DNA of 64,000 nucleotides. It comes from Cytobacillus pseudoceanisediminis (lineage in GTDB: Bacteria; Bacillota; Bacilli; Bacillales; Cytobacillaceae). Positions 30,718 to 54,593 of the stretch are shown here, piece by piece. Positions within the stretch are counted from its first letter, which is position 1. Every line of letters begins with the position of its first letter. The notes under the pieces are model-generated. The model was not told where the DNA came from. It saw only the letters and a list, made by a program, of their open reading frames with translations, and did no database searches. The position numbers and the translations under genes are program-made. The stretch covers positions 1,674,001 through 1,738,000 of the forward strand of contig NZ_CP097349.1 in assembly GCF_023516215.1 (NCBI RefSeq), read 5' to 3'.

Positions 30718-32055
30718 TTAATAAACGGCTGTCTCTAATCTTTTAAGCAGCCTCTTTATGCTGATGTTCGCTTCTCTTAACACCATTTCTTTATCAACCG
30801 TTTTTAGCTTCCTATTTTCCATGACGATTTTCCCGTTTACAATGGTTATTTCTACATCTGCTCGAGTGGCTGAATAGACAATCCTCGAGATGGTGTCGAT
30901 ATCAAATGACGGATACACATGAAAATCATTCAGATTAAGAATAGCAAGGTCTGCTTTCTTTCCGGGCTCAAGGCTTCCGATTTCCTTTTCCATTCCAACT
31001 GCTTTAGCTCCGCCGATCGTAGCCATTCTGAAGACTGTTCTGGCATTCATTGCTGTTGGTCCATGTACAGGCTTCTGAATGATTGCAGCCAATCTCATTT
31101 CATTGAACATATCCAGATTGTTATTGCAGGGAGCACCATCAGCACCCAGGCTGACAAAAGCCTGCTGATCCAATAAAGAAGGAATTTCTGCTACACCTGA
31201 TGCCAGCTTTAAATTGGATCCCGGACAATGGCTGACCTTTACACCACGCTCTTTGATGATCCTTTTTTCTTCTTCATCAAGCCAAACACAATGCGCAAGA
31301 ATCAGCCTTTCATTGGCAAGCCCAATGCTGTCCAAGTAAACTACATTCCGCATGCCTAATTCTCTTTCAACAAGCAGAATTTCATTGGCATTTTCCGATG
31401 CGTGCGTATGGACTCTTACATTGTACTGTGCAGAAAGATCCCTGACACTTTTCAGCAATTCCTCTGTGCAGGAAACTACAAAACGGGGACAGAAGGCATA
31501 TTGTATTCGTCCATTATCGCTGTTATGCCATTTCTCAAGCAGATCTGCGCTTTGCTGGATGGACTTTAAGGTATTTTCCCTTAACGGAACTGGAACTTCA
31601 TCCCCCTTATCCATCATGACCTTTCCGGCAAGTGCCCGTATGCCGCTCTCGGCAATTGCCTGAAATGCATATTCGGTATGATTGACCGTTTCCATGTCCA
31701 CCACAGTTGTTGTTCCGCTTTGAAGCAATTCACCAATCCCCAGCATGGCAGAATAATAGATGGATTCTTCATCATGCGAAGCCTCCAGCGGCCAGATTTT
31801 CTGTTTCAGCCAATCAAGCAGTTCAAGATCATCAGCCTGTCCTCGGAATAATGTCTGGCATAGATGTATATGTGTCTGGATAAATCCCGGTATGATTGTT
31901 TTTCCTGAAGCATCCATTACTTTATCAGCTTTATGTGTTAAATTCTGGCCAATTTCCACGATGCGGTCATCCACAATATAAAGGTCGCCGAAAACGATTT
32001 CTTCAGCTGCGTTCATCGTGATGATTTCAGCATTTTTTATCAGTATACTGCTCAA
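30718..32055 (-). CDS. SsnA/TrzA-type amidohydrolase (deaminase or imidazolonase candidate)
   Basis: Metal-dependent hydrolase of about 445 residues, ATZ/TRZ-like subgroup: metal His pair in QTHIHLCQTL, later VHTHASE, LAHCVWLDEEE and the catalytic Asp in GADGAPCNNN. Members deaminate guanine, 8-oxoguanine, S-adenosylhomocysteine or chlorinated triazines; imidazolonepropionase (HutI) is a relative. In this locus it may be a guanine deaminase or the 4-imidazolone ring opener. TTG 32055 is chosen because GGGGAGG lies just upstream; it overlaps the end of the M20 gene by 29 nt. Specificity unproven. Confidence 0.8.
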   Translation of the reverse strand: MSSILIKNAEIITMNAAEEIVFGDLYIVDDRIVEIGQNLTHKADKVMDASGKTIIPGFIQTHIHLCQTLFRGQADDLELLDWLKQKIWPLEASHDEESIYYSAMLGIGELLQSGTTTVVDMETVNHTEYAFQAIAESGIRALAGKVMMDKGDEVPVPLRENTLKSIQQSADLLEKWHNSDNGRIQYAFCPRFVVSCTEELLKSVRDLSAQYNVRVHTHASENANEILLVERELGMRNVVYLDSIGLANERLILAHCVWLDEEEKRIIKERGVKVSHCPGSNLKLASGVAEIPSLLDQQAFVSLGADGAPCNNNLDMFNEMRLAAIIQKPVHGPTAMNARTVFRMATIGGAKAVGMEKEIGSLEPGKKADLAILNLNDFHVYPSFDIDTISRIVYSATRADVEITIVNGKIVMENRKLKTVDKEMVLREANISIKRLLKRLETAVY

Positions 32056-33223
32056 CTTCTTCCTCCCCTTGTACAGGACTTGCTTCTCCTGGCTCCAGTT
32101 TTCCATATGTCATGATAAGCTGCTTGTAAAATTGAATGGAGCGCTGATAAGCCGCCAGACTCACCCACTCATTTGGCTGATGGGCAAGCTTTTCGTCTCC
32201 CGGGCCGTAAATCAGGGTAGGAATCTCACTCCTTGGATTAAGAACGGCACCATCTGTATAGTAGGACACCCCGTAATGGTTTGCTGGCGATTCGCCTTTG
32301 ATCATTTGCGCTATTTGAATAATGTCCACAGCAGGATCTGTTAAAATAGATGGACGGTCCAGGATGGTTTCAACACTGTATTTATAAATCTCTTCCTGAT
32401 CCATCAGCAGATCAAGTTTGGATTTCAGCATGTTTATAAAACTGGAATGGGATTGAGGAGGGACGGTTCTTATATCTGCTCTGATGCTGCATTTATCTGG
32501 AATGACATTGGTCTGCACTCCGCCTTCAATCATGGTAACAGCCAGGCTGCTTTGTCCGAGTGGCTTCCTATCTGTCATCCATTCAATTTTCATTTCATCC
32601 AATAGCCGGACTATTTTAAGCATATGATCTACTGCATTTATTCCCTGTTCCGGCATCGAACCGTGAGAGGTTTTTCCATACGCTGTTATTTCAAGCCAAA
32701 GAGCTCCCTTATGGCCAATCACAATTTTTTCATTTGTCGGTTCGGCAATGATTAGTGCATCGATTTTTCTGCAGTCATTCTCCTTTATAAAAGCCCTTGC
32801 CCCGCAGCTGTCGACTTCCTCCCCGGCTGTTGCCAAAAAAGTAACGCCAGCAGGGGGTACAGTACTCGTGAGATACAGCTCTTCCAATGCCAGGAACATC
32901 GCTGCAAGACCGCTTTTCATATCAGATGCTCCTCTGCCATATATGCGTCCATCTGCGATTTCTCCTGAAAATGGAGAGTAAATCCATTCTCCCGTTCCAG
33001 AAGAAACGGTATCCATATGGCCGCATAAGACTAGCTGTTTACCGCTTTTTCCCGGAAGCGTAACTTCAAAATTGCTTCGAGTCTCATCAAGCATTGTCAC
33101 TTTAAACGGCAGACCATTTTGTTTGCATCTGTTAATAAAAGCTTCAGTCACTAAATGTTCGTTTCCTGGCGGATTAGAGCTGTCGATTTGAAGCAGCTGC
33201 TGAAGAAACTGAATGTCATTCAT
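32027..33223 (-). CDS. M20-family peptidase/deacylase (ArgE/DapE-like)
   Basis: 398 residues of a dinuclear zinc amidohydrolase. Metal motifs: LCGHMDTVSSG, GRGASDMKSG, TAGEEVDSCG with the catalytic Glu, IIAEPT, and a final metal His in GDEKLAHQPNEWV. A dimerisation domain (KTSHGSMPEQGINA) is inserted. Family members cleave N-acyl, N-carbamoyl or N-formyl amino acids; in a purine-to-glycine route an N-formimino- or N-formyl-glycine could be the substrate, which is inference. Start ATG 33223 overlaps the preceding stop by one base. Confidence 0.85.
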   Translation of the reverse strand: MNDIQFLQQLLQIDSSNPPGNEHLVTEAFINRCKQNGLPFKVTMLDETRSNFEVTLPGKSGKQLVLCGHMDTVSSGTGEWIYSPFSGEIADGRIYGRGASDMKSGLAAMFLALEELYLTSTVPPAGVTFLATAGEEVDSCGARAFIKENDCRKIDALIIAEPTNEKIVIGHKGALWLEITAYGKTSHGSMPEQGINAVDHMLKIVRLLDEMKIEWMTDRKPLGQSSLAVTMIEGGVQTNVIPDKCSIRADIRTVPPQSHSSFINMLKSKLDLLMDQEEIYKYSVETILDRPSILTDPAVDIIQIAQMIKGESPANHYGVSYYTDGAVLNPRSEIPTLIYGPGDEKLAHQPNEWVSLAAYQRSIQFYKQLIMTYGKLEPGEASPVQGEEEVEQYTDKKC

Positions 33224-33844
33224 TAATCCGCCTCCACTATTTGCATTTTAATAGGGGTCACTTTAAACCCATTAACCGGTGCCATGTCCTGGGAACAGGT
33301 TGTACAGGCAATGACAACATCGCACAATGCTTTCAGCCTTATGTAATCACCAGGCTTGGAAAGAGGCTCGGTAATGACATAATCACCAGCATCATCAAGG
33401 ACATTATTCATAAATATATTGATGGGATCCGGAATGACAGGGGGTGAATATCATACTTTTTCAAAGCAGCCGCAATATTATCATGGCAATTTGGGTGATC
33501 CTCCTTGCCAAAATCAACTTTATAGCGGTAATAATCACAAGCAGGAAAGAAGAAATCATGTTTTCCAACAGTGTCTTCCACTAGCTGCATCAGCGGGCGG
33601 CGGCGGTTGCTGTAAAGCCAATCTCCCGTTTTAAGCCGAATGCTGCTTAATGAGGCACGCATATGAACAGGTGAAACATGTTCCTCAGGATCTTTATAGT
33701 TAAAACAGACAAAATCCCCCACTTGTTTTCCTTCCATATCAATAATAATGAGCTCTTCTCCTTTGTGAATCAGGGCGCTTCTTCCTTCATAAGGGGGATA
33801 ATCATTTCGTCTCTGATCTTCCCCCTGTTAAAAACCTCTTTCAT
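33223..33844 (-). CDS. DUF1989 (urea carboxylase-associated) protein, frame broken twice
   Basis: About 207 residues once one base is added to each of two G/C runs (33793-33797 and 33440-33444 on the plus strand). Rebuilt order: ATG 33844, IIPPYEGRSALIHKGEEL, DMEGKQVGDFVCFN, FFFPACDYYRY, then HPPVIPDPINIFMNN and CSQDMAPVNGF. The DFVCFN, PACDYY and PDPINIFMN motifs with several Cys/His are typical of DUF1989 proteins found beside urea, allophanate and glycine-type catabolic genes; recent work links relatives to nitrogen release from carboxylated urea derivatives. Role here unknown. Confidence 0.75.
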
Positions 33845-33864: not shown

Positions 33865-34548
33865 TTATTCAATGAAAACGGCAACAGCACGAACTGGAGA
33901 TCCCGTTCCTTTTCGAATCCTGAGCGGCAGTCCGAAATATAGAAATCGCATTCCTGCAATCTGATCGAGATTACAGAGATTTTCCGTATTGGTTATCCCA
34001 TATTCCCGGCAAATGAGGTGCCCGGAATACTTCGGATCATCCGGATGGTCAATGGCCGGGGCATCGATGCCTATATTGACCGCACCTTTTTCAGCCAGCC
34101 ATTTTGCTGCTTGATAATTCAGGCCCGTGTAGGTTGTGAGCCATTTGTCTGTACCATAAGAGCGATTATAGTGGCCGGTATAGAGGAGAACGATATCTCC
34201 TTTTTCAATAAATTGCTGTGATTTCCGCAATGCCGCCTCGAGATCACGGTCTGTAATATATCGATCAGGCTGGATGTGGGACACATCCAGGCAAACTGCG
34301 GGCCCGTAAAAATATTCAAGCGGCATTTCATCGATGTATTTGCCGTTTGGATCATATTCATAGGTTGCATCGCTATGGGTAGGGCCATGTTCATTGATTA
34401 ATAGATTATTGGTTGCAAACATAAATCCCACTTGCTTTTCACTTTCTTCGTGAGAGATATTTGGGAAGATCATTGTTTTTTGATGAAGGGGAAAAACAGG
34501 CATTCCCTGATAAATTTCCTGCGTTAAATCGACTAATTTAACTCCCAT
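33865..34548 (-). CDS. cyclase-family metal hydrolase (kynurenine formamidase-like)
   Basis: 227 residues of the PF04199 type. The metal-binding loop is INEHGPTHSDATYEY where the family usually has HxGTHxDxP; the Gly-Thr is changed to Pro-Thr but all ligands (His, His, Asp) are kept. Further motifs: GDIVLLYTGH and IGIDAPAIDHP. The family opens or hydrolyses N-formyl and lactam-like bonds. With its neighbours it is a candidate for 4-imidazolone or formimino hydrolysis. GGAGGAAT precedes the ATG. Confidence 0.82.
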   Translation of the reverse strand: MGVKLVDLTQEIYQGMPVFPLHQKTMIFPNISHEESEKQVGFMFATNNLLINEHGPTHSDATYEYDPNGKYIDEMPLEYFYGPAVCLDVSHIQPDRYITDRDLEAALRKSQQFIEKGDIVLLYTGHYNRSYGTDKWLTTYTGLNYQAAKWLAEKGAVNIGIDAPAIDHPDDPKYSGHLICREYGITNTENLCNLDQIAGMRFLYFGLPLRIRKGTGSPVRAVAVFIE

Positions 34549-34614: not shown

Positions 34615-36425
34615 TCAATTAATAATGGTCGGAATGACCTCAAATTTATCTACATCGATCAGTCCCATATCTGTAATTTTCCACTTAGGGCTTGTTACCA
34701 GTGACCAGAATGATAAATGCATAAACGGAACCTCCATGCCACAGCCAAGAACATCTTTTGCAAGCTGCGACAATTCGTCTACCTTTTCACTCATTTCTTT
34801 TCCAGTTAATTCGTCTGTCATTAAACCGCCAATCCTCAATGGCAGGTCACCGACTACTTTGCTATCCTTTATCATCGCTATTCCGCCATCCATTGCAATT
34901 ACACGGTTCACCGCAGTTACCATATCTTCGTAGTTTGTCCCTGTTACGATGATATTGTGTGTATCATGGGCGACGCTTTCTGCAATGGCACCGCTTTTCA
35001 AATCGAAGCCATGCAGGAAAGTCTTACCGATTTTTCCTGTTCTGCCGTGGCGTTCTACAACCAGAAGCGGCAGCACATCCTGCTTTAGGCAAGGCAGCAC
35101 AATGCCGTCTTTGACATTCAGAGTGAACTCGCTTCCGCCAGTTAAGTTCTGAAAAGGTATAGCTTCAATTGCCCTTACTTTTGCTCGGCTGCCTGAAGCC
35201 TCAATAGCCAGCTCCTTGAGTGTTACAGGTTTTCTCCTCACTGACTTTTTCACACTTTCCGGATATATGTAAGGAGCAATATCTATGGTTAATTCGCCTT
35301 TTTCAGCTGCTTTTTTCCTGCAAGATATACCTGGTCAACGGTCATATTGTTCAGGTCGCTGATCACGACAACGTCTGCCCGTTTGCCTGGTGCAATTACC
35401 CCAACATCTTTAAAGCCAAAATGGGAAGCCGGATTTATGGTCGCCATTTGGATGGCCTCCACAGGATCAATGCCTACAGCAATAGTTCTGCGGACAATAT
35501 CATTCATATGTCCGTAATTTAACAGATCAGCAGGCACCATATCGTCTGATACAAGGATTGCACGGCGGGAATCGAGCCCATCCTCTGTTATGGCACGGAT
35601 ACAGTCTGCCATATTTCTTTGGGAAGAGCCTTCACGCATGAACACACTTACACCATTGCGCAGCTTTTCGACAGTTTCTTCTTTTGTCGTAGTCTCATGG
35701 CAGGACACATGGTTCCCGCCACTGATAATATGAGCGGCAAGCTCTTTGCTAAACAATCCTGGTGCATTCCCTTCAACCGTTTTTCCTATGCTGTTTGCAT
35801 ACGAAACTGCGGCAACAAGGTCGTCTATTAATTCCGGGGCATGCTCATATACCGGCCTGATATTGCTGAAGCTCTGTATCTCTCCAATTCCCTGTACATT
35901 TGGGTCAGCCAATAGCTCTTTCATATCCTTGGAAGTCACATCAAATCCGGAGGTTTCAAGTCCGGGAGCATCAGGCACCGCGCAGGGAACCGTGAAAAGG
36001 ATCCGGTTTGGAAGTGTCTTTGCTTCTTCAATCATCGCCTGCATCCCGTGAACCCCCAGGACATTTCCAATTTCATGCGGATCTCCAATCAGCGTGGTGG
36101 TCCCAGTCGGAATGGAAAGCTTGGAGAATTCCGTGCAAGTCAGCATTGCACTTTCAAAATGCATATGAGAATCAATAAACCCGGGACATACGAATTTCCC
36201 CTGAATGTTTTCCACTTTCGTTTTTGGCCCGATTAAGTCTTTTGCATCTCCCGCCATTAAAATATATTCACCTTTCATCGCAACGTCTGCTTCATAGATC
36301 TCCCGGGTGATGACATTGATGAAGTATCCTCCTTTCAGGACTACATCAGCAAACTGGCTGGAATCAAGCAGCACGTCAATAAGCTTGCGGTATTGCACTG
36401 CCTTTTTTATGTCTATTGCATCCAT
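34615..36425 (-). CDS. adenine deaminase-like amidohydrolase 1 (BMC-linked), frame broken at T6 (35311-35316)
   Basis: Adenine deaminase fold: metal motif FIDSHMHFESAMLT, then DPHEIGNVLG, GHAAG-region variant EGNAPGLFSKEL, HETTTKEE, SDDMVPADLL; the second half carries VERHGRTGKIG and VAHDTHNIIVTGTN. The halves join by adding one base at 35311-35316 (AGKKAAEKGELTIDIAPY), giving about 603 residues. HETTTKEE replaces the usual DHE, and it lies in the shell operon while another adenine deaminase sits in the xdh set, so it may have moved to a related substrate such as 4-aminoimidazole. Confidence 0.85.
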
Positions 36426-36428
36426 TTA

Positions 36429-36704
36429 TTAACCCCCTGTCTCCCCTTCTACACTGTCAATAATTCCGATAATGGCCGCATCTATAGGAGCATCTTTATT
36501 TTGGACGGCTCTTGATGCCATGCTTCCAGTCACATATATGACCTTCTCTCCTATTCCGGCACCAACAGTATCAACGGTTATAATGGGGTTCGGTAACAGC
36601 GTGCCGTCCAATCCTACAGGCTGGGTAATTAATAATTTTGTGCCCACAAGATTATCATCTTTTCTTGTGGCAGTTACACGACCAACCACTATTCCCATTT
36701 GCAT
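36429..36704 (-). CDS. BMC pentameric vertex protein (EutN/CcmL, BMC-P)
   Basis: 91 residues; closes the corners of a polyhedral protein shell. Pattern MGIVVGRVTATRKDDNLVGTKLL, IITVDTVGAGIGEKVIYVTGS and the end DAAIIGIIDSVE match the EutN/CcmL family. Four nt from the deaminase start, clearly cotranscribed. Confidence 0.93.
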   Translation of the reverse strand: MQMGIVVGRVTATRKDDNLVGTKLLITQPVGLDGTLLPNPIITVDTVGAGIGEKVIYVTGSMASRAVQNKDAPIDAAIIGIIDSVEGETGG

Positions 36705-36740: not shown

Positions 36741-37448
36741 TCAGTTCCTTTGCTGTATCTCTTGCAAGGGGGTAATGATAGCCCCTTTTGGAACAGCTAT
36801 TTGATCAAGCTTACTAAAGCGGGCAAACCGGACTGATTCATCGGTAATAACCGTTTTCTTCACATGCTGAACATCAAATTCTGCTTGTTGATGGAAATCT
36901 ATTAATCTGATTCCAAGCATCTTCAGTTCTGTCATCTGCTCATTGAGCTTCCTTTTTAACAGGTCGGGGCCTTTATCCATTCCTTTCAGTTTCCAATATT
37001 GGCTGAAGGGATCACCTCCAGCCTTTAAAGCCGTGATCCGTTTTCCCTTCAATAAGCCCTTTAGGATGATCTGCACAATTGGTCTCTTTTCGTTAAGGGA
37101 CAGTATGTCTGTTATTAAAGAAAAGGATAGAATAGGCAAAAAGATCTCATCGAATTGATCAATTGACTGGGCATGAAACGCTGTCGGAGAGATCCAATCG
37201 TCATTTCCAGTCAGGTTAACTAACTCCTGAAGCGGAAATTGTTTTAGCATTTCCTCCTCAGCAGCCATTCTGAGTGTAATATCTTTCTTTGTTAACTTTT
37301 TCAAGTAAGAAAATCCTGGTTCCATCCCTATCATATGAGAGGTTAATAGAGCCAGGATGTGAGGTTTTCTGTCTCTGCAGCTGTCATTTCGCAGGTAAAG
37401 CTCCTGCAGAGTGTTTTTTGCCATAACACTCTGCTTTTTGCTGCTCAT
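36741..37448 (-). CDS. BMC-associated hypothetical protein
   Basis: 235 residues. The N-terminal two thirds is helical with no enzyme motif. The C-terminal segment KTVITDESVRFA followed by IAVPKGAIITPLQEI is like the end of 'Eut_hyp'-type proteins found only in BMC loci. It may help assembly or attach cargo; that is inference. Stop and start are close to both neighbours, 2 nt from the shell gene stop, so it is within the operon. Confidence 0.6.
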   Translation of the reverse strand: MSSKKQSVMAKNTLQELYLRNDSCRDRKPHILALLTSHMIGMEPGFSYLKKLTKKDITLRMAAEEEMLKQFPLQELVNLTGNDDWISPTAFHAQSIDQFDEIFLPILSFSLITDILSLNEKRPIVQIILKGLLKGKRITALKAGGDPFSQYWKLKGMDKGPDLLKRKLNEQMTELKMLGIRLIDFHQQAEFDVQHVKKTVITDESVRFARFSKLDQIAVPKGAIITPLQEIQQRN

Positions 37449-37450: not shown

Positions 37451-37735
37451 TTATTCACCGATATTTTTTGATAAAAGAGCTCTTTCAACTTCGCTGTGCG
37501 GCCTTGGGATGACATGTACCGAAATGAGTTCTCCAACTCTGCTGGCCGCTTCCGCACCTGCATCGGTGGCTGCTTTAACTGCTCCAACATCTCCTCTGAC
37601 CATAACCGTTACAAGACCAAATCCCACTTTTTCATATCCGCAGATCTCCACATTAGCTGCTTTAACCATTGCATCCGCTGCCTCTACTGCGCCTACAAGA
37701 CCTTTTGTCTCGATTAATCCCAATGCTTCACCCAT
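37451..37735 (-). CDS. BMC hexameric shell protein (BMC-H) 3
   Basis: 94 residues, PduA/EutM-like: [40 protein letters not shown] and [11 protein letters not shown]. Pore loop residues near KVGFG. AGGAGGAAACAC lies upstream. Confidence 0.95.
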
Positions 37736-37758: not shown

Positions 37759-38172
37759 TTAACCTGATGATTTGTCTGTATCGTTTATATTAACGTTGCT
37801 GCTCTCTTTCGCTTGCTTTTTTCTATTCGGGTTAACCTCTAGTCTGTTACCCCCTTGAGCATCATTTCCAGGATGCATATCTTCCAGCTTAAAATTCGGA
37901 AGCAGCTTCCCTGCTACTTCACTGTGGGCACGCGGAATGACATGAGCAGAAATTACTTTTCCAATTCTTTCTGCAGCACTAACACCAGCATCGACAGCAG
38001 ACTTCACTGCCGCTACATCCCCGTTAAAATGGATTGTAACCCCCAAATAGCTCTCCACTCCTATTACTTTTTCAATTCCTACAATTTCTACATCTGCTGC
38101 TTTTACGGCTGCATCTGCTGCAGAAACTGCTGTTGAATAACCAACGGTTTCAATCAGTCCCAATGCTTGCAA
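37759..38172 (-). CDS. BMC hexameric shell protein (BMC-H) 2 with C-terminal extension
   Basis: 137 residues: a BMC domain ([52 protein letters not shown]) followed by about 45 extra residues rich in Asn, Lys, Asp and Ser. Start is TTG 38172, 9 nt after AGGAGG; the earlier ATG is not preceded by a site. Extensions of this kind in BMC-H proteins can bind cargo or nucleic acid, or point into the lumen. Confidence 0.92.
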
Positions 38173-38274
38173 CTGGTAAATCCTCCTATGAAATAGACAA
38201 ATCATCTCTCCATGCCTATAAGATGCTTCCGGGATGAATAGTTTCTGATCTGTGACAGAGATGCTGGCTTACAA

Positions 38275-39234
38275 CTAATTAATTCTGTCGAATTCCTTAT
38301 GAAGCTGATCAGAGATGCGTGAAACATCATCATAGTGTCCATGAAGCAGCAAGTATTTCTTCTCTATTAAAAAATTGAAATGTTCAGAAGTGCTTTTTTT
38401 CATGTAACGGTCAAGGATCAAAATACCCGAATAATAGTCGATCCCTTCAATGACAGCCACACCGCCGATTGAAGAGTTCAGCCCCAATTGTTTTGTAAGC
38501 CATGGACTGGGGGATTTTTCTCTATAGATTTGAGTAGTTTTAAAGGATCTTTGGGAAAGTTTTTTAAAGAAGCTCTTTAAGGCGTTTAATAGTGTCCCAT
38601 GATTCTCTTCATATAGCTCCAGCGAAAAAGATTTCCCGCTGTTTTTGTCCCATGTCAGGCAATATCTTAAAGAAGGAAACTCTCTTAAAAGGTCATTCAG
38701 CATAAATAACTGCCCGGGCGTGCATTTTTCTGAAATGACTACACCGATTGAGGCTGTTTTTAATTCCCGCTGAAAAGAGCTTTCAAGAGCTGGATGAAGC
38801 TCTGAGAACAGCCAGACTTTTACACCCTCCGGCGTTTGTCCGATAAGCTGGCTTTCTCTTGCATTACGGTCAGGTTTTATATCAGCAAAGCCAGCATTGG
38901 AAGAAACCGGATGTTTCCCCTGTACCAGGGATAGGGTTTGAAGCTGTGCAATTTTTTCCTTAGCTGAAGACTTGGGTGCAGAATGAGAAACTGGTTGCCT
39001 TTTAAGGTTTTGATGTGGCTCTGCAGTCTTGACCGGTACTGAATGATGAACTGATATTCTTTTATTCATTTTTTCCTTCTGGTAATTAGGCCGGCTAATG
39101 CCCGGTATATTCTTCTTCGTTCCCTGCTGCCTGCTTGGAGGGGACTGGTTGGAAACCCCATTAATAGGATTTACTTTTGACTTGCCGTAAGGCTTCATCA
39201 CTTCTTCTACAACACTTTTAATAAAGTCAGACAC
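38275..39234 (-). CDS. BMC-locus protein with N-terminal helix resembling an encapsulation tag
   Basis: 319 residues. Residues 1-18 (MSDFIKSVVEEVMKPYGK) form a short amphipathic helix, followed by about 90 residues rich in Pro, Ser, Gln and Lys that are likely disordered, then a folded domain (about residues 125-319, GVKVWLFSELHPALESS to the end). Helix plus flexible linker is how cargo is tagged for BMC lumens. The folded domain has no motif I know. It lies between two shell genes in the operon. It is probably an internal scaffold or cargo protein. Confidence 0.7.
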   Translation of the reverse strand: MSDFIKSVVEEVMKPYGKSKVNPINGVSNQSPPSRQQGTKKNIPGISRPNYQKEKMNKRISVHHSVPVKTAEPHQNLKRQPVSHSAPKSSAKEKIAQLQTLSLVQGKHPVSSNAGFADIKPDRNARESQLIGQTPEGVKVWLFSELHPALESSFQRELKTASIGVVISEKCTPGQLFMLNDLLREFPSLRYCLTWDKNSGKSFSLELYEENHGTLLNALKSFFKKLSQRSFKTTQIYREKSPSPWLTKQLGLNSSIGGVAVIEGIDYYSGILILDRYMKKSTSEHFNFLIEKKYLLLHGHYDDVSRISDQLHKEFDRIN

Positions 39235-39250: not shown

Positions 39251-39514
39251 TTAAAGAATTTTGCGAAGTTCTGAATGAGGGCGGGGAATAACATTAGCCG
39301 AAACCAGTTCTCCTCCTGTCATGGTGTGTGCAGTCTTCCCAACCTCAACAGCTGCAGACACTGCTGCGACATCGCCCTCAATAATGACGGTGACAAGGCC
39401 GGATCCGACTCTCTTTAAATCAACTAAACTGACATTTGCCGCTTTTGCCATTGAGTCCAGCGCTTCAATAGCCGCTGTCAAACCCCTAGTTTCAATCAAG
39501 CCTATTGCCTTCAT
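39251..39514 (-). CDS. BMC hexameric shell protein (BMC-H) 1
   Basis: 87 residues: [54 protein letters not shown]. Shortest of the three, close to the PduA core, so a likely main facet protein. Lies just after ubiD. Confidence 0.95.
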   Translation of the reverse strand: MKAIGLIETRGLTAAIEALDSMAKAANVSLVDLKRVGSGLVTVIIEGDVAAVSAAVEVGKTAHTMTGGELVSANVIPRPHSELRKIL

Positions 39515-45637: not shown

Positions 45638-45715
45638 ACAAATCAACTCCCCCTCTATTTCTATAATTGTCTTGATAATACCTCCCTCCAGCACACTGAA
45701 AAATCAAATAGAATT

Positions 45716-45780: not shown

Positions 45781-45786
45781 GGCATT

Positions 45787-45974: not shown

Positions 45975-46463
45975 TTGAAAAGTATTAATTTTATTGTTAA
46001 TGGAAAGGAACGTACGGTCGTTTGCCCGCCTGCTAAAACACTCCTGGATGTCTTAAGGGAAGATTTAGGATTGACTGCCAGCAAGGAATGCTGCGGCAAG
46101 GGAGAATGCGGATCATGCTCTGTACTAATCAATAAAGAGGTTGTATGCTCCTGTCTAGTCCTCGCTGGCCAGGCGGAAAACCAGGTGATCACAACTTGTG
46201 AAGGAGTCGGCCTATCACCAAATCTCGATGTAATTCAGGAATCATTTATTGCTGAAGGGGCAACACAGTGCGGTTACTGTACTCCGGGTATCATCGTATC
46301 AGCTAAAGCATTTTTAGATAAAGTTGACACGATCCCATCTGCAGAGGAAATTAAAACAGCATTAGGCGGCAATCTATGCCGCTGTACAGGCTATACAAAA
46401 ATTATTAAGGCAGTGCAGACAGCTGCTTCAAAAAAAATATCCGAACCGGAAGCAGCCAAATAG
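45975..46463 (+). CDS. xanthine dehydrogenase small subunit, two [2Fe-2S] clusters
   Basis: Electron-transfer subunit of a molybdenum hydroxylase, 162 residues. First cluster Cys in KECCGKGECGSCSV with the later Cys at VCSC; second cluster in QCGYCTPG and NLCRCTGY. Same role as PucE/XdhC-type small subunits. TTG 45975 follows GAGGAGGCG. First gene of the plus-strand set. Confidence 0.95.
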   Translation: MKSINFIVNGKERTVVCPPAKTLLDVLREDLGLTASKECCGKGECGSCSVLINKEVVCSCLVLAGQAENQVITTCEGVGLSPNLDVIQESFIAEGATQCGYCTPGIIVSAKAFLDKVDTIPSAEEIKTALGGNLCRCTGYTKIIKAVQTAASKKISEPEAAK

Positions 46464-46466
46464 TCC

Positions 46467-47051
46467 ATGACACATACAGCTATTGTTCTTGCTGCAGGCC
46501 GATCCAGTAGAATGGGCACTTTAAAAGGACTGCTGCCGTGGCAAGGAACGACATTATTCGAGCATCAGCTGCAAAACCTCAAGGAATCCGTGTTTTCTGA
46601 CATTGTTGTCGTTTTGGGTTACAAAGCCGAAGAATTTATTCCTATCGCAAAGAAATACCCTATCAAAATCATAATGAATGAACAATTCCATGAAGGAAAA
46701 TGCTCATCAATCATTTCCGGAGTTAAAACCGCAGTCAAGTCAGCAGAAACGATTCTTATTACATCTGTTGACCAGCCGCTTCAGTCTTTCACCGTTAACA
46801 GGCTTGCAGAATCTCTTGCAAAAAGCGGCGGCCTGATTGCAGTTCCCAGCCATCAAGGCAAAAGAGGTCACCCTATCCTCTTTTCCGCCCAATTGAGAAG
46901 CGATCTTTTATCTATCAAGGAAGAAAGAATGGGCCTGAGATTTGTAATTCAAAAGCATGAAAAAGCTCTTCTTGAGGTGCCCGTTGAAAATGATGAGATT
47001 CATCTCAACCTGAATAAAGAGGCAGATTATATAAATGCCCTAAAAAAATGA
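46467..47051 (+). CDS. molybdenum cofactor nucleotidyltransferase (MocA/PucB-like)
   Basis: 194 residues, GT-A-like nucleotidyltransferase: IVLAAGRSSRMGTLKGLLPW binds the nucleotide, SVDQPL carries the metal Asp, GKRGHPILF the substrate site. It adds CMP to molybdopterin for Xdh enzymes, as PucB/MocA. Starts 3 nt after the previous stop. Confidence 0.9.
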   Translation: MTHTAIVLAAGRSSRMGTLKGLLPWQGTTLFEHQLQNLKESVFSDIVVVLGYKAEEFIPIAKKYPIKIIMNEQFHEGKCSSIISGVKTAVKSAETILITSVDQPLQSFTVNRLAESLAKSGGLIAVPSHQGKRGHPILFSAQLRSDLLSIKEERMGLRFVIQKHEKALLEVPVENDEIHLNLNKEADYINALKK

Positions 47052-47067
47052 CCTGGGAGGTAAGTCA

Positions 47068-47943
47068 ATGCTCGTTTCAGAAATTGATATGATTACCCCT
47101 TCCTCACTATCCGAATGTCTGACCCAGCTATCAAAGGAAGACAGGAAACATAGATTGATAGCCGGCGGGACAGATGCAGCAGTCCGGATGAAGGAAGGCA
47201 AATGGCGGCCTGATACATGGATAAATATTAAAAACTTAAAAGAGCTGCGCTATATCAAAGAAAGTGAAGATTTTATCCATATTGGCCCCTTGACCACACA
47301 TACCGATATGATTCAATCACCGCTTCTGCAGAGAAAAGCAGATGTTCTCGTGGAAGCAGCCCGTGAAGTCGGAGCCACCCAAATGCAGAATATGGGAACA
47401 ATCGGGGGAAATATTGCTACTGCTTCCCCTGCAGGCGATACCCTTCCGGCTTTGTATGTTCTTGGTGCCATGCTCGAACTCACCTCGCTGACGAATAAAC
47501 GGACCATTCCAATCGAAGAGTTTATCACTGGTCCCGGCAGGACAGTTTTAAAAGAAAATGAAATGATTACAAATATCCTAATAAAGCCGCAAAAACCAAA
47601 TGGTATAGGCATTTTCCAAAAGCTCGGCCCCCGAAAAGCACAATCCATTTCCATTGTGAATGTAGCCATTTTACTCACAATGGACAATGACCGCAATTGC
47701 ACGGAAGGAAAAATTGCCTTCGGTTCTGTGGCGCCGACTATTATCCGTGCACGTAAGTGTGAATCAATGCTTACCCTGGGGCAGCTTAACGAGGAATTAA
47801 TCCAGAATATCGCCAAAATTGCCTGGAAAGAGGTCATGCCCATTTCAGATGGAAGAGCAACTGCTACATATAGAAGAGATATGGCAAGCGCTTTACTGGA
47901 AAGAGGGTTATATCGTCTAATCAGGAGGTGGGAAAACCAATGA
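47068..47943 (+). CDS. xanthine dehydrogenase FAD-binding subunit
   Basis: 291 residues, CoxM/PucC-like. FAD motifs RLIAGGTDAAV and QNMGTIGGNIATASPAGDT; C-terminal domain with GIFQKLGPRKAQSISIVN. ATGA overlap with the next gene. Ribosome site TGGGAGG. Confidence 0.93.
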   Translation: MLVSEIDMITPSSLSECLTQLSKEDRKHRLIAGGTDAAVRMKEGKWRPDTWINIKNLKELRYIKESEDFIHIGPLTTHTDMIQSPLLQRKADVLVEAAREVGATQMQNMGTIGGNIATASPAGDTLPALYVLGAMLELTSLTNKRTIPIEEFITGPGRTVLKENEMITNILIKPQKPNGIGIFQKLGPRKAQSISIVNVAILLTMDNDRNCTEGKIAFGSVAPTIIRARKCESMLTLGQLNEELIQNIAKIAWKEVMPISDGRATATYRRDMASALLERGLYRLIRRWENQ

Positions 47944-50225
47944 ACACCAAATGGGTTGGAAAAAGAGTCCAAAGAATTGATGGCCCGGAAAAAGTAACAG
48001 GAGAATTAAAATATATGACCGATTACCAATTTGACAATATGGTTTGGGGCAAAGTCCTGCGGTCTGAATATCCGCATGCCAAAATAAAATCCATTGACAC
48101 TGAAGCAGCTAAAAACCTCCCAGGTGTTATTTGTGTACTTACCCATAAAGATATTCCCGGCTTTAATGGATTTGGGATTGTTGTTCCCGATCAGCCTGTT
48201 CTGTGCTCAGATGTCGTACGGTGCACAGGGGATGCTGTAGCACTGGCTGCAGCAGAAACTCTGGAAATCGCCGAACAGGCACTGACGTTAATCAAAGTGG
48301 ATTATGAGCCTTTGGAAGTTGTTGCTGATGCTGAATATGCCTTAACCGATTCTGCTCCAAAGCTTCATCCTGATGGCAATTTGCACAGCCATGTGAAAAT
48401 AAAAAACGGAAACATTGAGGAAGCCTTCGAAGAAGCTGACATCATTGTTGAGAATACCTTCTACTCCCCCGCCAAATGCATGCATTTATTGAAACAGAAG
48501 GCGGCTGGGGAGTTATGGATGAAGAAGGATTCCTCACGATTCGCTGCCCTGGCCAATACGCGTACCGTGATCGAATGCAGATTGCAAGGTCCCTGGCTTA
48601 TAACCCTGAAAGAATCAGAGTCATTTCAAGTCCTATTGGAGGAGCATTCGGCGGGAAGGATGAGATTACGGTTCAAATTTATCTGGCTCTCCTTGCCATG
48701 CATACAAACGGGCGGCCGGTAAAAATTCATTTAAGCCGTGAAGAGTCTGTCATTGCCGGCATAAAAAGGCATCCATTTAAAGTCAAAATGAAAACAGCTG
48801 CCAAAAAAGACGGCACATTGATCGCTAACCAGGTAACTGCCATAGGAGATACCGGGGCCTATGCTTCCCTGGGTGGGGCAGTCATCGCTCTGGCAATCGA
48901 GCATTCTTGCGGCCCTTATAAAATTCCAAATGTGGATCTCGAAGGCTTCTGTGTTTATACCAATAATGGCATTGCCGGTGCCTTCAGAGGCTTTGGCGTC
49001 AACCAGGTATGTATGGGAATTGAAACCCATATGGATATGATTGCAGAAAAACTGGGAATGAATCCAATTGAACTTCGCAAAAAAAATGTCTATCATCAGG
49101 GCGAAGTTTCAAGTGTCGGCCACATTGTCAAATCCAGTGTGGGCACCTATAAAACACTTGAAACCGCAGAAAATTGCGATCTGTGGAAGAACCGTGAAAA
49201 ATATAAATCCGAAGTGAGTGAGCCATGGAAAAAACGGGGGTGTCCCTCGCAACTTCCTTTCATGGCATTGGAATGGGTATTGGCCTGCCTGATTATGGAG
49301 CCGCCTCTATCGAACTTCAGTCAGACGGTAAATTTCTTGTAGGTGTCGGATGCGAGGAAATCGGCGGAGGCAATAGCACTGTGTACGCCCAGATAGCGGC
49401 TGAGATGCTGAACTGTGATATCAGCAATATTATGGTCGTTCAAGGAGATACACAGAAGACACTTGATGGCGGTACTGTAACTGCCTCCCGCTCCACCTAC
49501 ACCGGCGGAAGAGCTGTTGCGGCAGCAGCACCTAAGATGACTGAGCTTCTTATCCAAACAGCTGCTGAAATGCTGAATTTACAAGCATCAAGAATTGACT
49601 TAAGACCAAACCATATTTCAGCCGATGGACAAATCATACCCTATAAGTCTATATATAAGTACCTTTATGATCAACATCAGTCTGCCAGAGTAGAAGGACA
49701 CTTCTACCTTCCAAAAGAAAAGGAAGAAATCAAAGGCTCAGGCGGCGCCCCCATCATTTATACGGATATTTAACCCATGTCGTGATGGTTGAAGTAGATA
49801 CTTTAACTGGTGAAACGGATGTTTTGCGGGTTGTTTCCATCCCTGATGCAGGAAAAGTCATTAATCCGCAGGGGTTAGAGGGCCAGGCTGAAGGCGGAGC
49901 AGTAATGGGAATCGGCTATACCCTTTTTGAGGATGTGCTGATAGAGAATGGTTATCATAAGACACGGAATTTCACTGATTATATCATCCCCACTATTCGC
50001 GAGACGCCTTTAATTGAGACCTTCCCTGTTGAAGAGCCCGAACAATCAGGGCCTTTTGGGGCAAAAGGAATTGGTGAAGTAGTGATGATTCCGATTATCG
50101 CTGCTATCATGTCGGCCATATATGATGCAACAGGAGCTAGAATCTTTCAACTGCCTGCTACTCCTGAAAGAGTTTTTAATGCATTGAAAGATCTAAAAAA
50201 ACAAAAAGTCCAATCTGCAAGGTGA
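47940..50225 (+). CDS. xanthine dehydrogenase molybdenum-binding subunit, frame broken three times
   Basis: About 762 residues once single bases are restored at 48474-48476, G5 49236-49240 and C5 49748-49752. Rebuilt order: RIDGPEKVTGELKY, DVVRCTGDAVALAAAE, AKMHAFIETEGGW, SSPIGGAFGGKDE, TNNGIAGAFRGFG, GVGCEEIGGGNSTV, TVTASRSTYTGG, and near the end GPFGAKGIGEV with the catalytic Glu. These are the signatures of the xanthine dehydrogenase/CO dehydrogenase large-subunit family (as PucD). AFRGFG fits a purine hydroxylase. Likely substrate hypoxanthine/xanthine from context. Confidence 0.9.
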
Positions 50226-50233
50226 TGCAATTG

Positions 50234-51067
50234 ATGAGCCGCAATTTATTTGCCAAATTAGAAGAGTCCATCAATAACCGAAAAGACACATATCTCCTTA
50301 CCATTACAGACTATCCTGATAACAAAATCCTCGGAGCAAAAGCGTTATTATGGCCAGATGGAGGCCTCTGTACTGAAAACTCACTGCTGCCGCAGGATGT
50401 GAAGGATCTATTAATAGCACAATGCAGTATACTTGTCGCCAAAAAGCGGTCCGGCGCAGTGAAATTTGTGTGGAAGGACAGCATAATTGAATGTTTTGCA
50501 GAATACTTCCCTGCTCCGCTCCATTTAATAGTCGCCGGGGCGGGCCATGTGTGTGAACCCGTGGCAGAAATGGGGCGTATGCTGGGATTTTTCGTCACAG
50601 TAATAGACGATCGGGAAGAGTTCGCAAACAGGGAACGCTTTCCATTTGCCAATGAAGTGGTTTGCCAATCCTATCTGCATTATTTCAGGGATGTGGATAT
50701 TTCGGAAAAAACCTATATTCTCCTTCTTACCAGGGGACATAAATATGACGTGCTCAGTTTGAATGAACTTTTAAAAAGAAACAGTCAGGCAGGATATATA
50801 GGCATGATTGGCAGCAGAAGGCGCATTTCAGGTGTTTTTAAAGAACTTCAGCAGGATTTTCCGGATGAAAGCTTTGACAATTTATACACCCCTGTAGGAC
50901 TAGATATCGGAGCAGAAACACCTGCAGAGATAGCAGTCAGTATTATGGCAGAAATTCTGAAAGTAAAAAATCAAAAATCTGGAAATTCTTTAAGTACACA
51001 GATTAAAAAGTATGCGAAGATGGGTTTCCATGAGGGGGCCGGCAAATGGACCAAATGCAGCTCATAA
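50234..51067 (+). CDS. XdhC-type maturation factor, Rossmann part
   Basis: About 277 residues. N-terminal short domain, then an NAD-type Rossmann fold (LHLIVAGAGHVCEPVAEMG, VTVIDDREEFAN), YIGMIGSRRR and the end GLDIGAETPAEIAVSIMAEI, as in XdhC/CoxI proteins that deliver sulfurated cofactor to Xdh. ATG 50234 is preferred; GTG 50222 and ATG 50225 are possible. The next gene encodes a CoxI-like N-terminal domain separately. Confidence 0.88.
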   Translation: MSRNLFAKLEESINNRKDTYLLTITDYPDNKILGAKALLWPDGGLCTENSLLPQDVKDLLIAQCSILVAKKRSGAVKFVWKDSIIECFAEYFPAPLHLIVAGAGHVCEPVAEMGRMLGFFVTVIDDREEFANRERFPFANEVVCQSYLHYFRDVDISEKTYILLLTRGHKYDVLSLNELLKRNSQAGYIGMIGSRRRISGVFKELQQDFPDESFDNLYTPVGLDIGAETPAEIAVSIMAEILKVKNQKSGNSLSTQIKKYAKMGFHEGAGKWTKCSS

Positions 51068-51360
51068 AGCGAGCCATGGAAGTCAGGAAGGGAGGTGAGA
51101 AAGCAGCGCTTGCCACAATTATTCGCACCAAAGGGTCCACTCCGAGAAAAACTGGAAGCAGAATGATTGTGTTTCCGTGCGGAAGAATTGAAGGTACAAT
51201 TGGCGGGGGCTGCGGTGAAGCAGAAGTGATTGAGAAGGCCTTCGAAATCATCCAATCGAATACTCCAAGTCAACAGCGCGTCGATTTAACGAAAGGGCTA
51301 CTTTTTGAAGATGGAGGAATCTGCGGCGGAATTATGGATGTCTTTATTGAACCAATTTAA
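51046..51360 (+). CDS. XdhC/CoxI N-terminal-domain protein
   Basis: 104 residues: ALATIIRTKGSTPRKTGSRM and GTIGGGCGEAEVI are the signatures of the XdhC N-terminal domain, while the rest is missing. It overlaps the previous gene by 22 nt with site GAGGGGG. The two probably form one split maturation factor. Confidence 0.85.
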   Translation: MDQMQLIKRAMEVRKGGEKAALATIIRTKGSTPRKTGSRMIVFPCGRIEGTIGGGCGEAEVIEKAFEIIQSNTPSQQRVDLTKGLLFEDGGICGGIMDVFIEPI

Positions 51361-51450: not shown

Positions 51451-52818
51451 ATGTCGATAATCGAAAAGGATCTTGGTTCAGGCCTCCCGCCTGCCTCTGG
51501 TGCGAACCTCTTAGAACGGCTCTTTAAGCTATCCGCACGAAACACCAATGTAAAGACAGAACTTCTTGCGGGCGTTACTTCGTTTATGACAATGAGTTAT
51601 ATTATCTTTGTCAACCCGATTATCTTAGCGGACGCAGGAATACCAAAAGAAGCCGCACTGGCTGCAACCATATACGCAAGTGTCTTCTGTACTCTTCTAA
51701 TGGCACTGTGGGCAAATTTCCCTGTTGCGGTTGCCCCTGGCATGGGGCTGAATGCTTTTTTTGCTTATACAGTAGTCCTTGGTCAGGGACTTTCCTGGCA
51801 AACAGCCCTTGGAGCTGTATTTATATCGGGAATTGTGTTTTTAATTTTAACAGTTACAGGAGTCCGCCAAAAGATCGTAGATGGTGTCCCGGATGTTTTA
51901 AAGTCAGCTATAGGTGTTGGGATTGGATTATTCATTGCTTTTATTGGCTTAAAAAATGCAGAACTTGTGGTCGCAAATGAATCTACATTTGTCGGCTTAG
52001 GAAGCATAACAAGCCAAGGCCCGCTTCTTGCCCTTTTTGGATTAATTATTGCCGCCCTCCTCATGGCGAAAAAAGTAAAAGGCGCGCTGCTGATTAGCAT
52101 ATTGGGTACAAGTGCGCTGGCCATGATTGTTGGCTTTATTGCCTATCCAAAGGCCGTAAGTGATATCGTATCCCTAAGTCTTCCAAGCATGTCTGACACG
52201 TTTTTAGCTATGGATATTATGGGAGCAGTAAAATATGGCATCATCTCAGTCATTTTCTCCTTTACTATTGTAGAATTATTTGACAATTTAGCTACCCTCA
52301 TCGGATTATCAAGAAAAGCTGGCCTCACTGATGAAAATGGAAAAATTGAAAATCTGGATCGTGCACTTCAGGCAGATGCAGTTGGCACGATGGCAAGTGC
52401 AGCCTTTGGAAGCACTGCCTTAAACGCATATGTGGAAAACGCAACCGGGATCTCGGAAGGCGGTCGAACTGGCTTAACTGCTTTAACTGTAGCTGTTTTA
52501 TTTTTTCTGTCGCTCATTTTTGCTCCGCTCATTTATTTCATACCGTCTGTAGCCACAGCACCTATCCTTATCCTCGTTGGTGCCTTAATGCTCAGTGAAA
52601 TAAAACATATAAGCTTCGATGACTTCACTGATGTCATACCTGTTTTTTTAACAATCGTTCTTATGCCTTTAACTTTCAGTATCGCCCAGGGGCTGGCATT
52701 CGGCTTTATCTCTTACACACTGCTTAAGCTTCTTACAGGCAAGCATCATCAAATTCACTGGATCATGTATTTTGTCAGTACAGCCTTTATCATTAATTTC
52801 ATTATGGGCGGACATTAA
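51451..52818 (+). CDS. AzgA/PbuG-type purine permease
   Basis: 455 residues, 12-14 helices. Motifs of the AzgA branch: ELLAGVTSFMTMSYIIFVNP, VAPGMGLNAFFAYTVV, VELFDNLATLIGLS and ALNAYVENATGISEGGRTG. Relatives (PbuG, PbuO) import hypoxanthine, guanine or adenine. Here it would bring bases for Ade and Xdh. GAAGGAG precedes the ATG. Confidence 0.93.
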   Translation: MSIIEKDLGSGLPPASGANLLERLFKLSARNTNVKTELLAGVTSFMTMSYIIFVNPIILADAGIPKEAALAATIYASVFCTLLMALWANFPVAVAPGMGLNAFFAYTVVLGQGLSWQTALGAVFISGIVFLILTVTGVRQKIVDGVPDVLKSAIGVGIGLFIAFIGLKNAELVVANESTFVGLGSITSQGPLLALFGLIIAALLMAKKVKGALLISILGTSALAMIVGFIAYPKAVSDIVSLSLPSMSDTFLAMDIMGAVKYGIISVIFSFTIVELFDNLATLIGLSRKAGLTDENGKIENLDRALQADAVGTMASAAFGSTALNAYVENATGISEGGRTGLTALTVAVLFFLSLIFAPLIYFIPSVATAPILILVGALMLSEIKHISFDDFTDVIPVFLTIVLMPLTFSIAQGLAFGFISYTLLKLLTGKHHQIHWIMYFVSTAFIINFIMGGH

Positions 52819-52857
52819 AAAGATGTTTGTCATTTTCAAAAAAAGCGAGGAGTTTAC

Positions 52858-54593
52858 ATGAAGCTAACCATTGAAAATTTACGAAAAAGAATAGACGTGG
52901 CAGCCAAAAGGACTCCTGCCGATCTGGTTATTAAAAACGGGAAGGTAATAAATGTATTTACACACGAAATCATTGAGGAAGACATAGCCATTGCCGATGG
53001 AATCGTAGCTGGCTTAGGAAGCTATGAAGGGAAGGAAATCATTGATGCTGGGGGCACCTATATAGCCCCCGGGTTCATTGATGGGCATGTCCATATTGAG
53101 TCAGCGATGGTTACCCCTGCTGAATTCAGCAATGTTGTTCTCCCGCACGGAGTAACGACTGTCATTGCAGACCCTCACGAAATAGCCAATGTCAGCGGAA
53201 CAATAGGCATTGATTTCATGCTGGAATCTTCAGAAGAGATCCCGCTTGATGTATTTTTTATGCTTCCATCCTGTGTGCCTGCAACTCCATTTGAAAATGC
53301 CGGCGCTTCTCTCAGTTACAAGGATCTTGAAAAATATTACGGTCACCCGAGAGTGCTCGGTCTTGGTGAAGTAATGGATTACCCTGCTGTTATGAACAAT
53401 GATGCAGAAATGCTAAAAAAACTGGAAGACGCTCATAGCAAAGGAAAATGTATCGATGGGCATGCAGCAGGACTTAATGCAGATGAAATTAATATATACA
53501 TGGCCGCCGGGATTAGAACGGACCATGAATGCATAAACCCTGAAGAAGCGCTGGACCGAATGCGCAAAGGAATGTATGTTATGCTGAGGGAAGGATCGGC
53601 GGCCAGGGACTTATTAGCACTTCTCAAATCTGTCAGCGAACATAACGCACGGCGCTGTTTATTTGTAACGGATGACAAGCATCTGGATGACCTGATCAAT
53701 GAAGGCAGCATTGACCATAATGTCAGAATGGCCATTAAGGAAGGGATGGATCCTATTCTTGCCGTCCAAATCGCTACGCTTAATGCAGCAGAATGCTTCG
53801 GCCTGAAAAATAAAGGGGCTATTGCTCCCGGTTATGAAGCCGACCTGATATTTCTTAGTGATCTTAGGAATGTAAAGGTTGAGAAAGTAATGAAAAGCGG
53901 AATACTTGCTGCAGAAAACGGGGTCATTAAGGATCCAGTTCCTGAGAGCCTCGAACCTGTAACTGCCATTTTGGACAGTGTCAAAATCGGCAGCCTAAAC
54001 GGTGAGGATTTAAGCATAAGAATGGGAACTGGGAATGCCAATATTATTGGCATTATACCAAACAGCATTGTGACCAGGCACCTGGTGGAAAAGGCCGATT
54101 CACTTAATGGCTATTTCCAGCCTAATTCTGATAAAGATTATTTAAAATTGGCTGTGGTGGAGCGGCATCACCTCACTGGAAGCATCGGGCTTGGCATAAT
54201 TAAGGGGCTGGGGATTACAAGAGGAGGGATTGCCTCAACGGTTGCCCACGATTCCCATAATATTGTGGCAGCAGGAACCTCTGATGAAGATTTACTGGCG
54301 GCAATTAAGCATACGGCAGCAATGAAAGGCGGCCTGGCTGTTGTCCAGGATGGAAAAATCCTTGCGGAACTCCCCTGCCTATTGCAGGGCTCATGAGTGA
54401 TCGGGATTCTTCATTTATTTACGGACGTTTGTCTGAGTTGAATCATGCACTTAGAACAGTCGGATGCAGCATGGAATTCAACCCGTTTTTGACGCTTTCA
54501 TTTTTAGCGCTTCCAGTAATACCTGAGCTCAAGTTAACTGATAGAGGATTATTTTCCGTCAGCTCCTTTAGCCACATTAATGCAGAATCATAG
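52858..54593 (+). CDS. ade: adenine deaminase 2, frame broken at C4 (54372-54375)
   Basis: Converts adenine to hypoxanthine and ammonia, feeding Xdh. Motifs FIDGHVHIESAMVTPAEF, ADPHEIANVSG, DGHAAGLNADE, DHECINPEEAL, FVTDDKHLDDL and VAHDSHNIVAAGTSD are typical adenine deaminase signatures. One base added at 54372-54375 restores LPLPIAGLMSDRDSS and the C-terminal FLTLSFLALPVIPELKLTD, about 577 residues. Contains the normal DHE motif, unlike the BMC-linked copy. Confidence 0.93.

Follow-up and report, generated by a model that had tools for sequence, protein, structure and literature searches.

The stretch of Cytobacillus pseudoceanisediminis DNA analysed here (64,000 nt, NZ_CP097349.1 1,674,001-1,738,000, i.e. 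C1:1674001-1738000 of the 5.69 Mb genome G000; hereafter the window, with positions counted from its first letter) contains a bacterial microcompartment (BMC) locus that a sequence-only reading had connected to the degradation of xanthine via aminoimidazole. The BMC set lies on the minus strand and encodes a cyclic amidohydrolase (XauA), an isochorismatase-fold enzyme, UbiX, UbiD, three BMC-H (PF00936) and one BMC-P (PF03319) shell proteins, a protein with a tagged N-terminus, an Ade-like enzyme (in two open reading frames (ORFs)), a cyclase, DUF1989 and M20 proteins, an SsnA-like hydrolase and an NCS2 permease. The divergent set on the plus strand encodes Xdh subunits, MobA-like and XdhC-type factors, a second permease (which we take to be AzgA) and adenine deaminase, and is preceded by a purine riboswitch (Table 1). 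Searches with Pfam and NCBIfam bore out the gene calls and domains of that reading. They also agreed with its statement that aldehyde dehydrogenase and phosphotransacylase are absent next to the BMC-H and BMC-P genes, as neither family was found in a Pfam scan of 32 window proteins (some short ORFs and Xdh pieces lay outside the scan).

Table 1. Features of the xanthine-related BMC locus in the window.
Feature	Position	Strand	Basis and remarks
SsnA-like amidohydrolase; likely purine (guanine) deaminase yielding xanthine, alternatively aminoimidazole deaminase	30718..32106	-	PF01979; PRK07228 733 bits
M20 amidohydrolase; candidate N-formylglycine deformylase	32027..33223	-	PF01546/PF07687
DUF1989; candidate formiminoglycine iminohydrolase	33223..33844	-	PF09347; broken by single-base deletions at 33444 and 33797
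Cyclase-family hydrolase; candidate 4-imidazolone ring opener	33865..34548	-	PF04199
Ade-like enzyme; candidate 4-aminoimidazole deaminase	34615..36425	-	PF01979 + PF13382; indel at 35316; two ORFs, single ORF of ~600 aa in relatives
BMC-P pentamer (vertex)	36429..36704	-	PF03319
BMC-locus protein	36741..37448	-	weak TIGR02536 likeness (30 bits, cut-off 153); UbiX/flavoprotein-type fold in model
BMC-H	37451..37735	-	PF00936
BMC-H with C-terminal extension	37759..38205	-	PF00936
Tagged protein; predicted cryptic tandem BMC (BMC-T, PduB/EtuB/EutL type), candidate shell-core tether	38275..39234	-	predicted fold
BMC-H	39251..39514	-	PF00936
UbiD-family; candidate 4-amino-5-imidazolecarboxylate decarboxylase	39540..40913	-	PF01977/PF20695/PF20696
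UbiX flavin prenyltransferase	40843..41538	-	PF02441; NCBIfam UbiX family above cut-off
Isochorismatase-fold amidohydrolase; candidate ureido hydrolase	41453..42043	-	PF00857
Cyclic amidohydrolase; candidate xanthine amidohydrolase (XauA)	42071..43531	-	PF01979
NCS2 purine permease (upper end approximate)	43603..44950	-	PF00860 in two ORFs; single-base deletions at 44130 and 44743
MpsC-like small protein	45183..45533	-	PF10057
Purine riboswitch aptamer, upstream of xdh set	45698..45795	+	RF00167 63.5 bits, gathering 37
Xdh 2Fe-2S, MobA-like, FAD and molybdenum subunits	45975..50225	+	molybdenum subunit split; indels at 48470, 49240 and 49752
XdhC-type maturation factors	50222..51360	+	PF13478; PF02625
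AzgA-like purine permease	51451..52818	+	PF00860
Adenine deaminase	52858..54396	+	shortened by deletion at 54375; 578-aa ORF in C. oceanisediminis 2691

Several genes are interrupted or truncated in the window (the permease, the Xdh molybdenum subunit, DUF1989, the Ade-like enzyme and the plus-strand adenine deaminase). In a comparison with Cytobacillus oceanisediminis 2691 (99.3-99.6% identical DNA) all 15 indel sites found between ~24600 and 56440 proved to be bases missing from the window within homopolymer runs, and DUF1989 is intact in that strain (207 aa). The frameshifts are thus most likely assembly (sequencing) errors, and decay of the locus was rejected on the same grounds.

The locus is a BUF1/Xau microcompartment, a real and known kind, in a bacillus-type variant with an apparently different pathway end. 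The BMC locus type BUF was described as one without metabolosome core enzymes that carries amidohydrolases, a deaminase, a carboxy-lyase, an isochorismatase and formiminotransferases (Axen 2014, PMC4207490), the route from xanthine to formiminoglycine was predicted for the Xau locus (Ravcheev 2019, PMC6620236), and a 2021 survey (PMC8156839) applied the prediction to BUF1. The same route was proposed for xanthine fermentation by Clostridium cylindrosporum and C. acidurici, where formiminoglycine is passed to tetrahydrofolate; most of the genes were still unidentified in that 2012 paper, the text of which does not use the word microcompartment (PMC3519856). For this pathway, worked out in the 1950s, the genes were still described as no more than predicted in 2019 (PMC6620236). 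Like the published loci, which were reported from Bacillus fordii too (PMC4207490, PMC6620236, Sutter 2021 PMC8217296), the window combines BMC shell genes with Xdh, a cyclic and a second amidohydrolase (the isochorismatase-fold enzyme), a UbiD decarboxylase, a deaminase and a ring hydrolase. Unlike them, it has DUF1989 and M20 instead of a formiminotransferase, and, as regards the BMC-T gene of the type described in 2014, it has no tandem PF00936 protein but one with a predicted tandem BMC fold, recognisable by fold only. XauG, the formiminotransferase, had no FTCD_N match in the whole of G000. This absence marks the locus as a variant, B. fordii without XauG in its cluster being part of the published set.

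We scanned reference genomes with an alignment of 15 XauA sequences, which yielded 168 relatives, and kept the best 80 as loci (61-99% XauA identity among these best 80 of 168). When the ORFs of these loci and the window (n=81) were clustered, XauA came out in 79 loci; 75 had the isochorismatase-fold enzyme and as many UbiD, 73 had UbiX, 70 an Ade-like enzyme and 69 the cyclase. These counts are too low where contig ends cut loci or genes lie past the 10 kb flank. The families thus recur in most of the 80 loci compared, so the gene set of the window is not a matter of chance; gene order was compared in a part of the loci. DUF1989 (42/81) and M20 (36/81) were found in bacillus-type loci only, and FTCD (27/81; PF07837/PF02971 in a profile test of one member per cluster) and a PucR-type regulator (26/81; PF07905) only in the other type. 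The bacillus type (L009-L050, L053, L069 and the window) was delimited by organism title and locus likeness; some titles are apparently misplaced, namely Paenibacillus sp. FSL R5-0490 (XauA 97%) and Pseudomonas sp. ISL-84 (94%) and, in the other group, Lutibacter sp. B2. At least four loci of the other group (L068, L074, L084, L086) show no shell gene within the stretch examined.

To see how the pathway ends, DUF1989 and FTCD were searched in the whole genomes of the 80 loci (78 genomes) and in G000, i.e. in 79 XauA-bearing genomes (46 + 33), so that linkage to the locus does not matter for the counts. DUF1989 was present in 44 of the 45 bacillus-type genomes and FTCD in one, FTCD being absent from exactly the 44 with DUF1989, whereas the 34 other genomes contained DUF1989 in no case and FTCD in 32. 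No genome had both and 77/79 had exactly one. The sole bacillus-type genome without DUF1989 is that of Neobacillus notoginsengisoli (L028), in which the Ade-like, cyclase and SsnA-like genes are followed by FTCD and then by a PF04961 formiminotransferase-cyclodeaminase protein (L089). The formiminotransferase gene was reported missing from the cluster in B. fordii and likewise in strain 2_A_57_CT2 (PMC6620236). We found no FTCD_N match anywhere in the genome of B. fordii DSM 16014 (L035/G015), which indicates that the step is not merely encoded outside the cluster there, and the proposal that XauG acts outside the compartment was rejected for this strain. The claim of the sequence-only reading that every step has a fitting enzyme therefore holds as far as formiminoglycine; the predicted next enzyme is absent from the genome, and DUF1989 and M20 seem to be its replacement.

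A second test covered 193 genomes of the family (XauA threshold E <= 1e-150). XauA was found in 34 (one a partial match) and DUF1989 at 73-100% identity in 32, all XauA-positive (the two pieces of the window gave 85-90%); one XauA-negative genome had a DUF1989 homologue of 39% identity. The only XauA-positive genomes without DUF1989 were G095, which carries the N. notoginsengisoli coordinates, and G146, and both have FTCD and cyclodeaminase; FTCD was otherwise present only in G201, which lacks XauA. Placed randomly among the 34, two FTCD genomes would match the two DUF1989-less ones 1 time in 561 (ancestry ignored). In G146 one FTCD gene lies beside urocanase and an imidazolonepropionase-like protein and probably serves histidine use, and a cyclodeaminase gene follows the second FTCD gene at another place in the genome (L100, L101). 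In G201 the genes for FTCD, cyclodeaminase (PF04961) and a formate-tetrahydrofolate-ligase-like protein lie together (L102).

It is conceivable, although we consider it unlikely, that DUF1989 and M20 have their role in a different step or are simply carried along in the lineage, and that the exclusion of FTCD merely reflects the bacillus/clostridium split, in line with the cluster table, in which 27/27 FTCD loci are clostridium-type and 42/42 DUF1989 loci bacillus-type. A phylogeny built from the concatenated XauA, UbiD and Ade-like proteins of 69 loci argues otherwise. In it L028 pairs with L025 and L099, the locus of G146, with L032 as sister loci (support 1.0 each; deeper nodes only 0.57-0.58), and since L025 and L032 have DUF1989, the gene was lost twice. 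These nested, independent losses inside the bacilli both coincide with FTCD, which is rare in the family (3/193 genomes), and one of them is an exchange within the operon.

The DUF1989 protein itself could also fit the proposed step, as formiminoglycine would have to lose an imino nitrogen, i.e. undergo deimination. Carboxyguanidine deiminase belongs to the DUF1989 family (PMC11271267, PMC11410670), so a DUF1989 protein could be the enzyme, and we infer that it hydrolyses formiminoglycine. The Xau proteins match the PF09347 profile, and three cysteines and a neighbouring Asp, His and Asp are invariant in 40/40 full-length copies; the three cysteines were reported to bind zinc in trimethylamine N-oxide demethylase (PMC12560246). 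Among solved structures 3oru comes closest, a DUF1989 protein with no stated function. In Paenibacillus monticola (L095) a tandem DUF1989 pair is followed by genes for a biotin-dependent carboxylase and for an amidase, as in a guanidine operon; the Xau DUF1989 is only 28% and 20% identical to the members of this pair. Carboxyguanidine deiminase CgdAB, for which Schneider 2020 is reportedly the source, shares with the Xau protein the family, the zinc cysteines, the conserved Asp and the proposed removal of an imino nitrogen, but the Xau locus has a single DUF1989 gene without a biotin carboxylase or allophanate hydrolase-type amidase as neighbour.

M20 probably removes the formyl group of N-formylglycine and is the weaker half of the proposal. 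Of 26 DUF1989-bearing genomes tested, 24 carry it, with an identity of 49-100% in 23 and of 47% in P. monticola, where it lies on a different contig. In whole-genome searches it was absent from N. notoginsengisoli and both Fictibacillus genomes tested; of 19 other genomes, 4 had homologues of 34-39% only. Direct cleavage of formiminoglycine by DUF1989 to glycine and formamide, with M20 having another job (e.g. on a ureido or amide by-product), would account for Fictibacillus as well as for the swap with FTCD. We nevertheless hold it to be improbable, as the characterised DUF1989 member named in print is a deiminase (PMC11271267, PMC11410670) and M20 accompanies DUF1989 in nearly all genomes tested while being absent from the FTCD-bearing G010.

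The purine context of the locus gains support from its regulation. Besides the one in the window, a purine riboswitch was found in 8 of 13 other bacillus-type loci searched (L013, L016, L026, L028, L033, L038, L048 and L049), twice in L028, where one copy lies ahead of the xdh genes and a second, at 19790-19889, separates the cyclase gene from the SsnA-like one. In L026 (20007-20109) it lies between DUF1989 and the SsnA-like gene after conversion to genome coordinates. This position directly before the SsnA-like gene in two loci makes the encoded enzyme likely a guanine deaminase; guanine-type riboswitches follow the C74 rule. The name SsnA could not be maintained and was rejected as gene identity, because the protein scores far above the cut-off (522 bits) for the 5'-deoxyadenosine deaminase PRK07228 and only 192 bits for SsnA; relatives of 70-100% identity were present in 27/27 bacillus-type genomes searched. 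Uricase was found in 2 of 46 genomes searched, so that most lack the enzyme of the oxidative route. Together with PucR in clostridium-type loci and a family-level fit for each step, these observations lend support to the xanthine assignment of the sequence-only reading, which repeats a prediction already published (PMC6620236). In one locus (L047) a glycine riboswitch (4308-4411) lies ~5.6 kb upstream of XauA, glycine being the predicted product of the Xau locus.

XauA residues H59, H61, K151, H186, H242 and D316 are invariant in 15/15 aligned sequences, which we take to be as expected for the metal centre and catalytic roles of a hydantoinase-type enzyme. As the NCBIfam scores of XauA resemble those of allantoinase, hydantoinase and dihydroorotase, and its nearest solved relatives are a hydantoinase and allantoinases, the compartment might act on another nitrogen ring compound (hydantoin, allantoin or another imidazole). 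With a purine riboswitch, Xdh, two purine-type permeases and adenine deaminase present, this seems very improbable. We also know of no use of UbiD, the Ade-like enzyme, the cyclase or FTCD/DUF1989 in allantoin breakdown, and a plain allantoin or hydantoin locus was considered and rejected. The isochorismatase-fold enzyme has its best NCBIfam scores, far below cut-off, with biuret (BiuH) and ureidoacrylate (RutB) amidohydrolases, and a solved relative in 3hb7 (248 bits; presumably from Alkaliphilus). The nearest solved relatives of UbiD are 6h6v (408 bits; which we take to be HmfF) and 6h6x at ~400 bits, the next scoring 165. Solved relatives of the cyclase are kynurenine formamidase and isatin hydrolase. 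All 69 Xau copies of the Ade-like enzyme have Asn in the GHAxGL motif and Cys in the DHE motif where the adenine deaminases encoded in these loci have His and Asp, respectively (7/7 each); the solved adenine deaminase 3nqb has His at the former position too. The enzyme is therefore not an ordinary adenine deaminase, and the changes would fit an altered substrate such as 4-aminoimidazole.

The tagged protein, which has no Pfam or NCBIfam match and no PF00936 domain by sequence, is predicted to consist of a ~128-residue disordered, tagged N-terminus followed by a tandem BMC fold. The model matches over the two domains of the tandem, with only BMC shell proteins among the first 37 structural matches. 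Like the Ade-like and SsnA-like proteins, the "tagged unknown protein" of the sequence-only reading needed reinterpretation, being by predicted fold a tandem BMC protein. The fold is shared with PduB, EtuB and EutL, and PduB also has a tag and linker before the tile (PMC12108088), but identity is ~10% and the long N-terminal stretch and the lack of a PF00936 match set the protein apart. A lumenal cargo adaptor with a BMC-like fold, which we judge quite unlikely, would be consistent with the lack of sequence similarity to BMC domains and with the short linker-like protein that alone fills this slot in 3 of 7 clostridium-type loci inspected. One such clostridial short protein has a less amphipathic start than the tagged protein (moment 0.23 against 0.60). 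The fold match over both domains speaks for a shell tile, and as none of the 178 BMC-domain ORFs of these loci exceeds 170 aa, they contain no other tandem tile. The protein at 36741..37448 might, by its predicted fold, be of UbiX/flavoprotein type. G000 also has a second, ethanolamine-utilisation-like BMC locus (C1:1425360-1437499; L002-L008) with EutL-, EutC- and aldehyde-dehydrogenase-like proteins (labels by eye).

The best explanation, and in our view a probable one, is a bacillus-type Xau (BUF1) compartment for hydrolytic purine breakdown with a folate-free DUF1989/M20 end. It rests on computation, namely on gene content, riboswitch, exclusive distribution, residue changes and predicted fold; from these we infer all substrates and products, the shell contents and the role of the tether. 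Purine bases would be taken up by the permeases and converted to xanthine, adenine by deamination and oxidation of the hypoxanthine formed (plus set) and guanine by deamination, probably by the SsnA-like enzyme. XauA would open the six-membered ring to 4-ureido-5-imidazolecarboxylate, the isochorismatase-fold enzyme would take off the ureido group, UbiD (with prenylated flavin mononucleotide from UbiX) would decarboxylate the product to 4-aminoimidazole, the Ade-like enzyme would convert this to 4-imidazolone and the cyclase would open the latter to formiminoglycine. DUF1989 would then form N-formylglycine and ammonia, and M20, where present, formate and glycine, replacing folate-dependent FTCD and cyclodeaminase. 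The shell (three BMC-H, one BMC-P and the cryptic BMC-T) would surround some of these steps, presumably holding labile aminoimidazoles, and the tagged N-terminus of BMC-T may tie the enzyme core to it as in PduB. The joint claim, that a so far unrecognised enzyme, a DUF1989 formiminoglycine iminohydrolase acting with an M20 deformylase, takes the place of FTCD/cyclodeaminase and on two occasions has ceded to it, and that a new, sequence-undetectable tagged tandem tile tethers the core, falls somewhat short of an even chance in our estimate. If true, the swap would point to one short reaction that anchors the whole predicted pathway, assign a function to a member of the DUF1989 family and explain how bacilli run the pathway without passing the formimino group to folate, and a hidden tile with a built-in tag would alter the annotation of BMC shells. 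To the extent that the literature was searched, both the DUF1989-type end and the hidden tile are novel: no paper on either was found by title or abstract, with supplements, bioRxiv and most subscription journals outside the search.

Several observations weigh against this explanation. No assay of a Xau enzyme was found in the literature, and the number of independent swaps is small; these are its main weaknesses. The DUF1989/FTCD contrast is mostly one deep split with only two independent events. In one of these, G146, FTCD is unlinked to the Xau locus, and an FTCD gene may belong to histidine use rather than to the Xau pathway, as the L100 example illustrates. Two genomes, of Thermosyntropha lipolytica and of a Desulfovibrio metagenome-assembled genome (MAG), have neither gene; their stretches lack shell genes and the MAG may be incomplete. 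Two Fictibacillus genomes have DUF1989 without M20, and three more Fictibacillus loci show no M20 within the stretch examined, so M20 is either dispensable or has a substitute. No purine riboswitch was detected in the stretches examined of 5 of the 13 bacillus-type loci (L022, L035, L041, L046 and L047) or of 7/7 clostridium-type loci, and guanine-type riboswitches often repress, which would be odd for a catabolic operon. The BMC-T assignment is a modelled one that rests on fold: a profile of the tagged protein gave just two unrelated weak matches among PDB sequences, and hhalign against the EutL of G000 a probability of 0.5%. Leaving aside the tagged protein, inspection by eye revealed no clear signal sequence on a Xau enzyme.

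Outside the shell-bearing loci, XauA adjoins an isochorismatase-fold gene in Thermosyntropha (L068, L083, L074), once together with UbiD, and in MAGs of Desulfovibrio and Melainabacteria (L084, L086) a XauA relative lies near a UbiD of ~30% identity, in both cases without shell genes within the stretch examined. The MpsC-like protein encoded between the divergent sets of the window was found in 37 loci, all of them bacillus-type.

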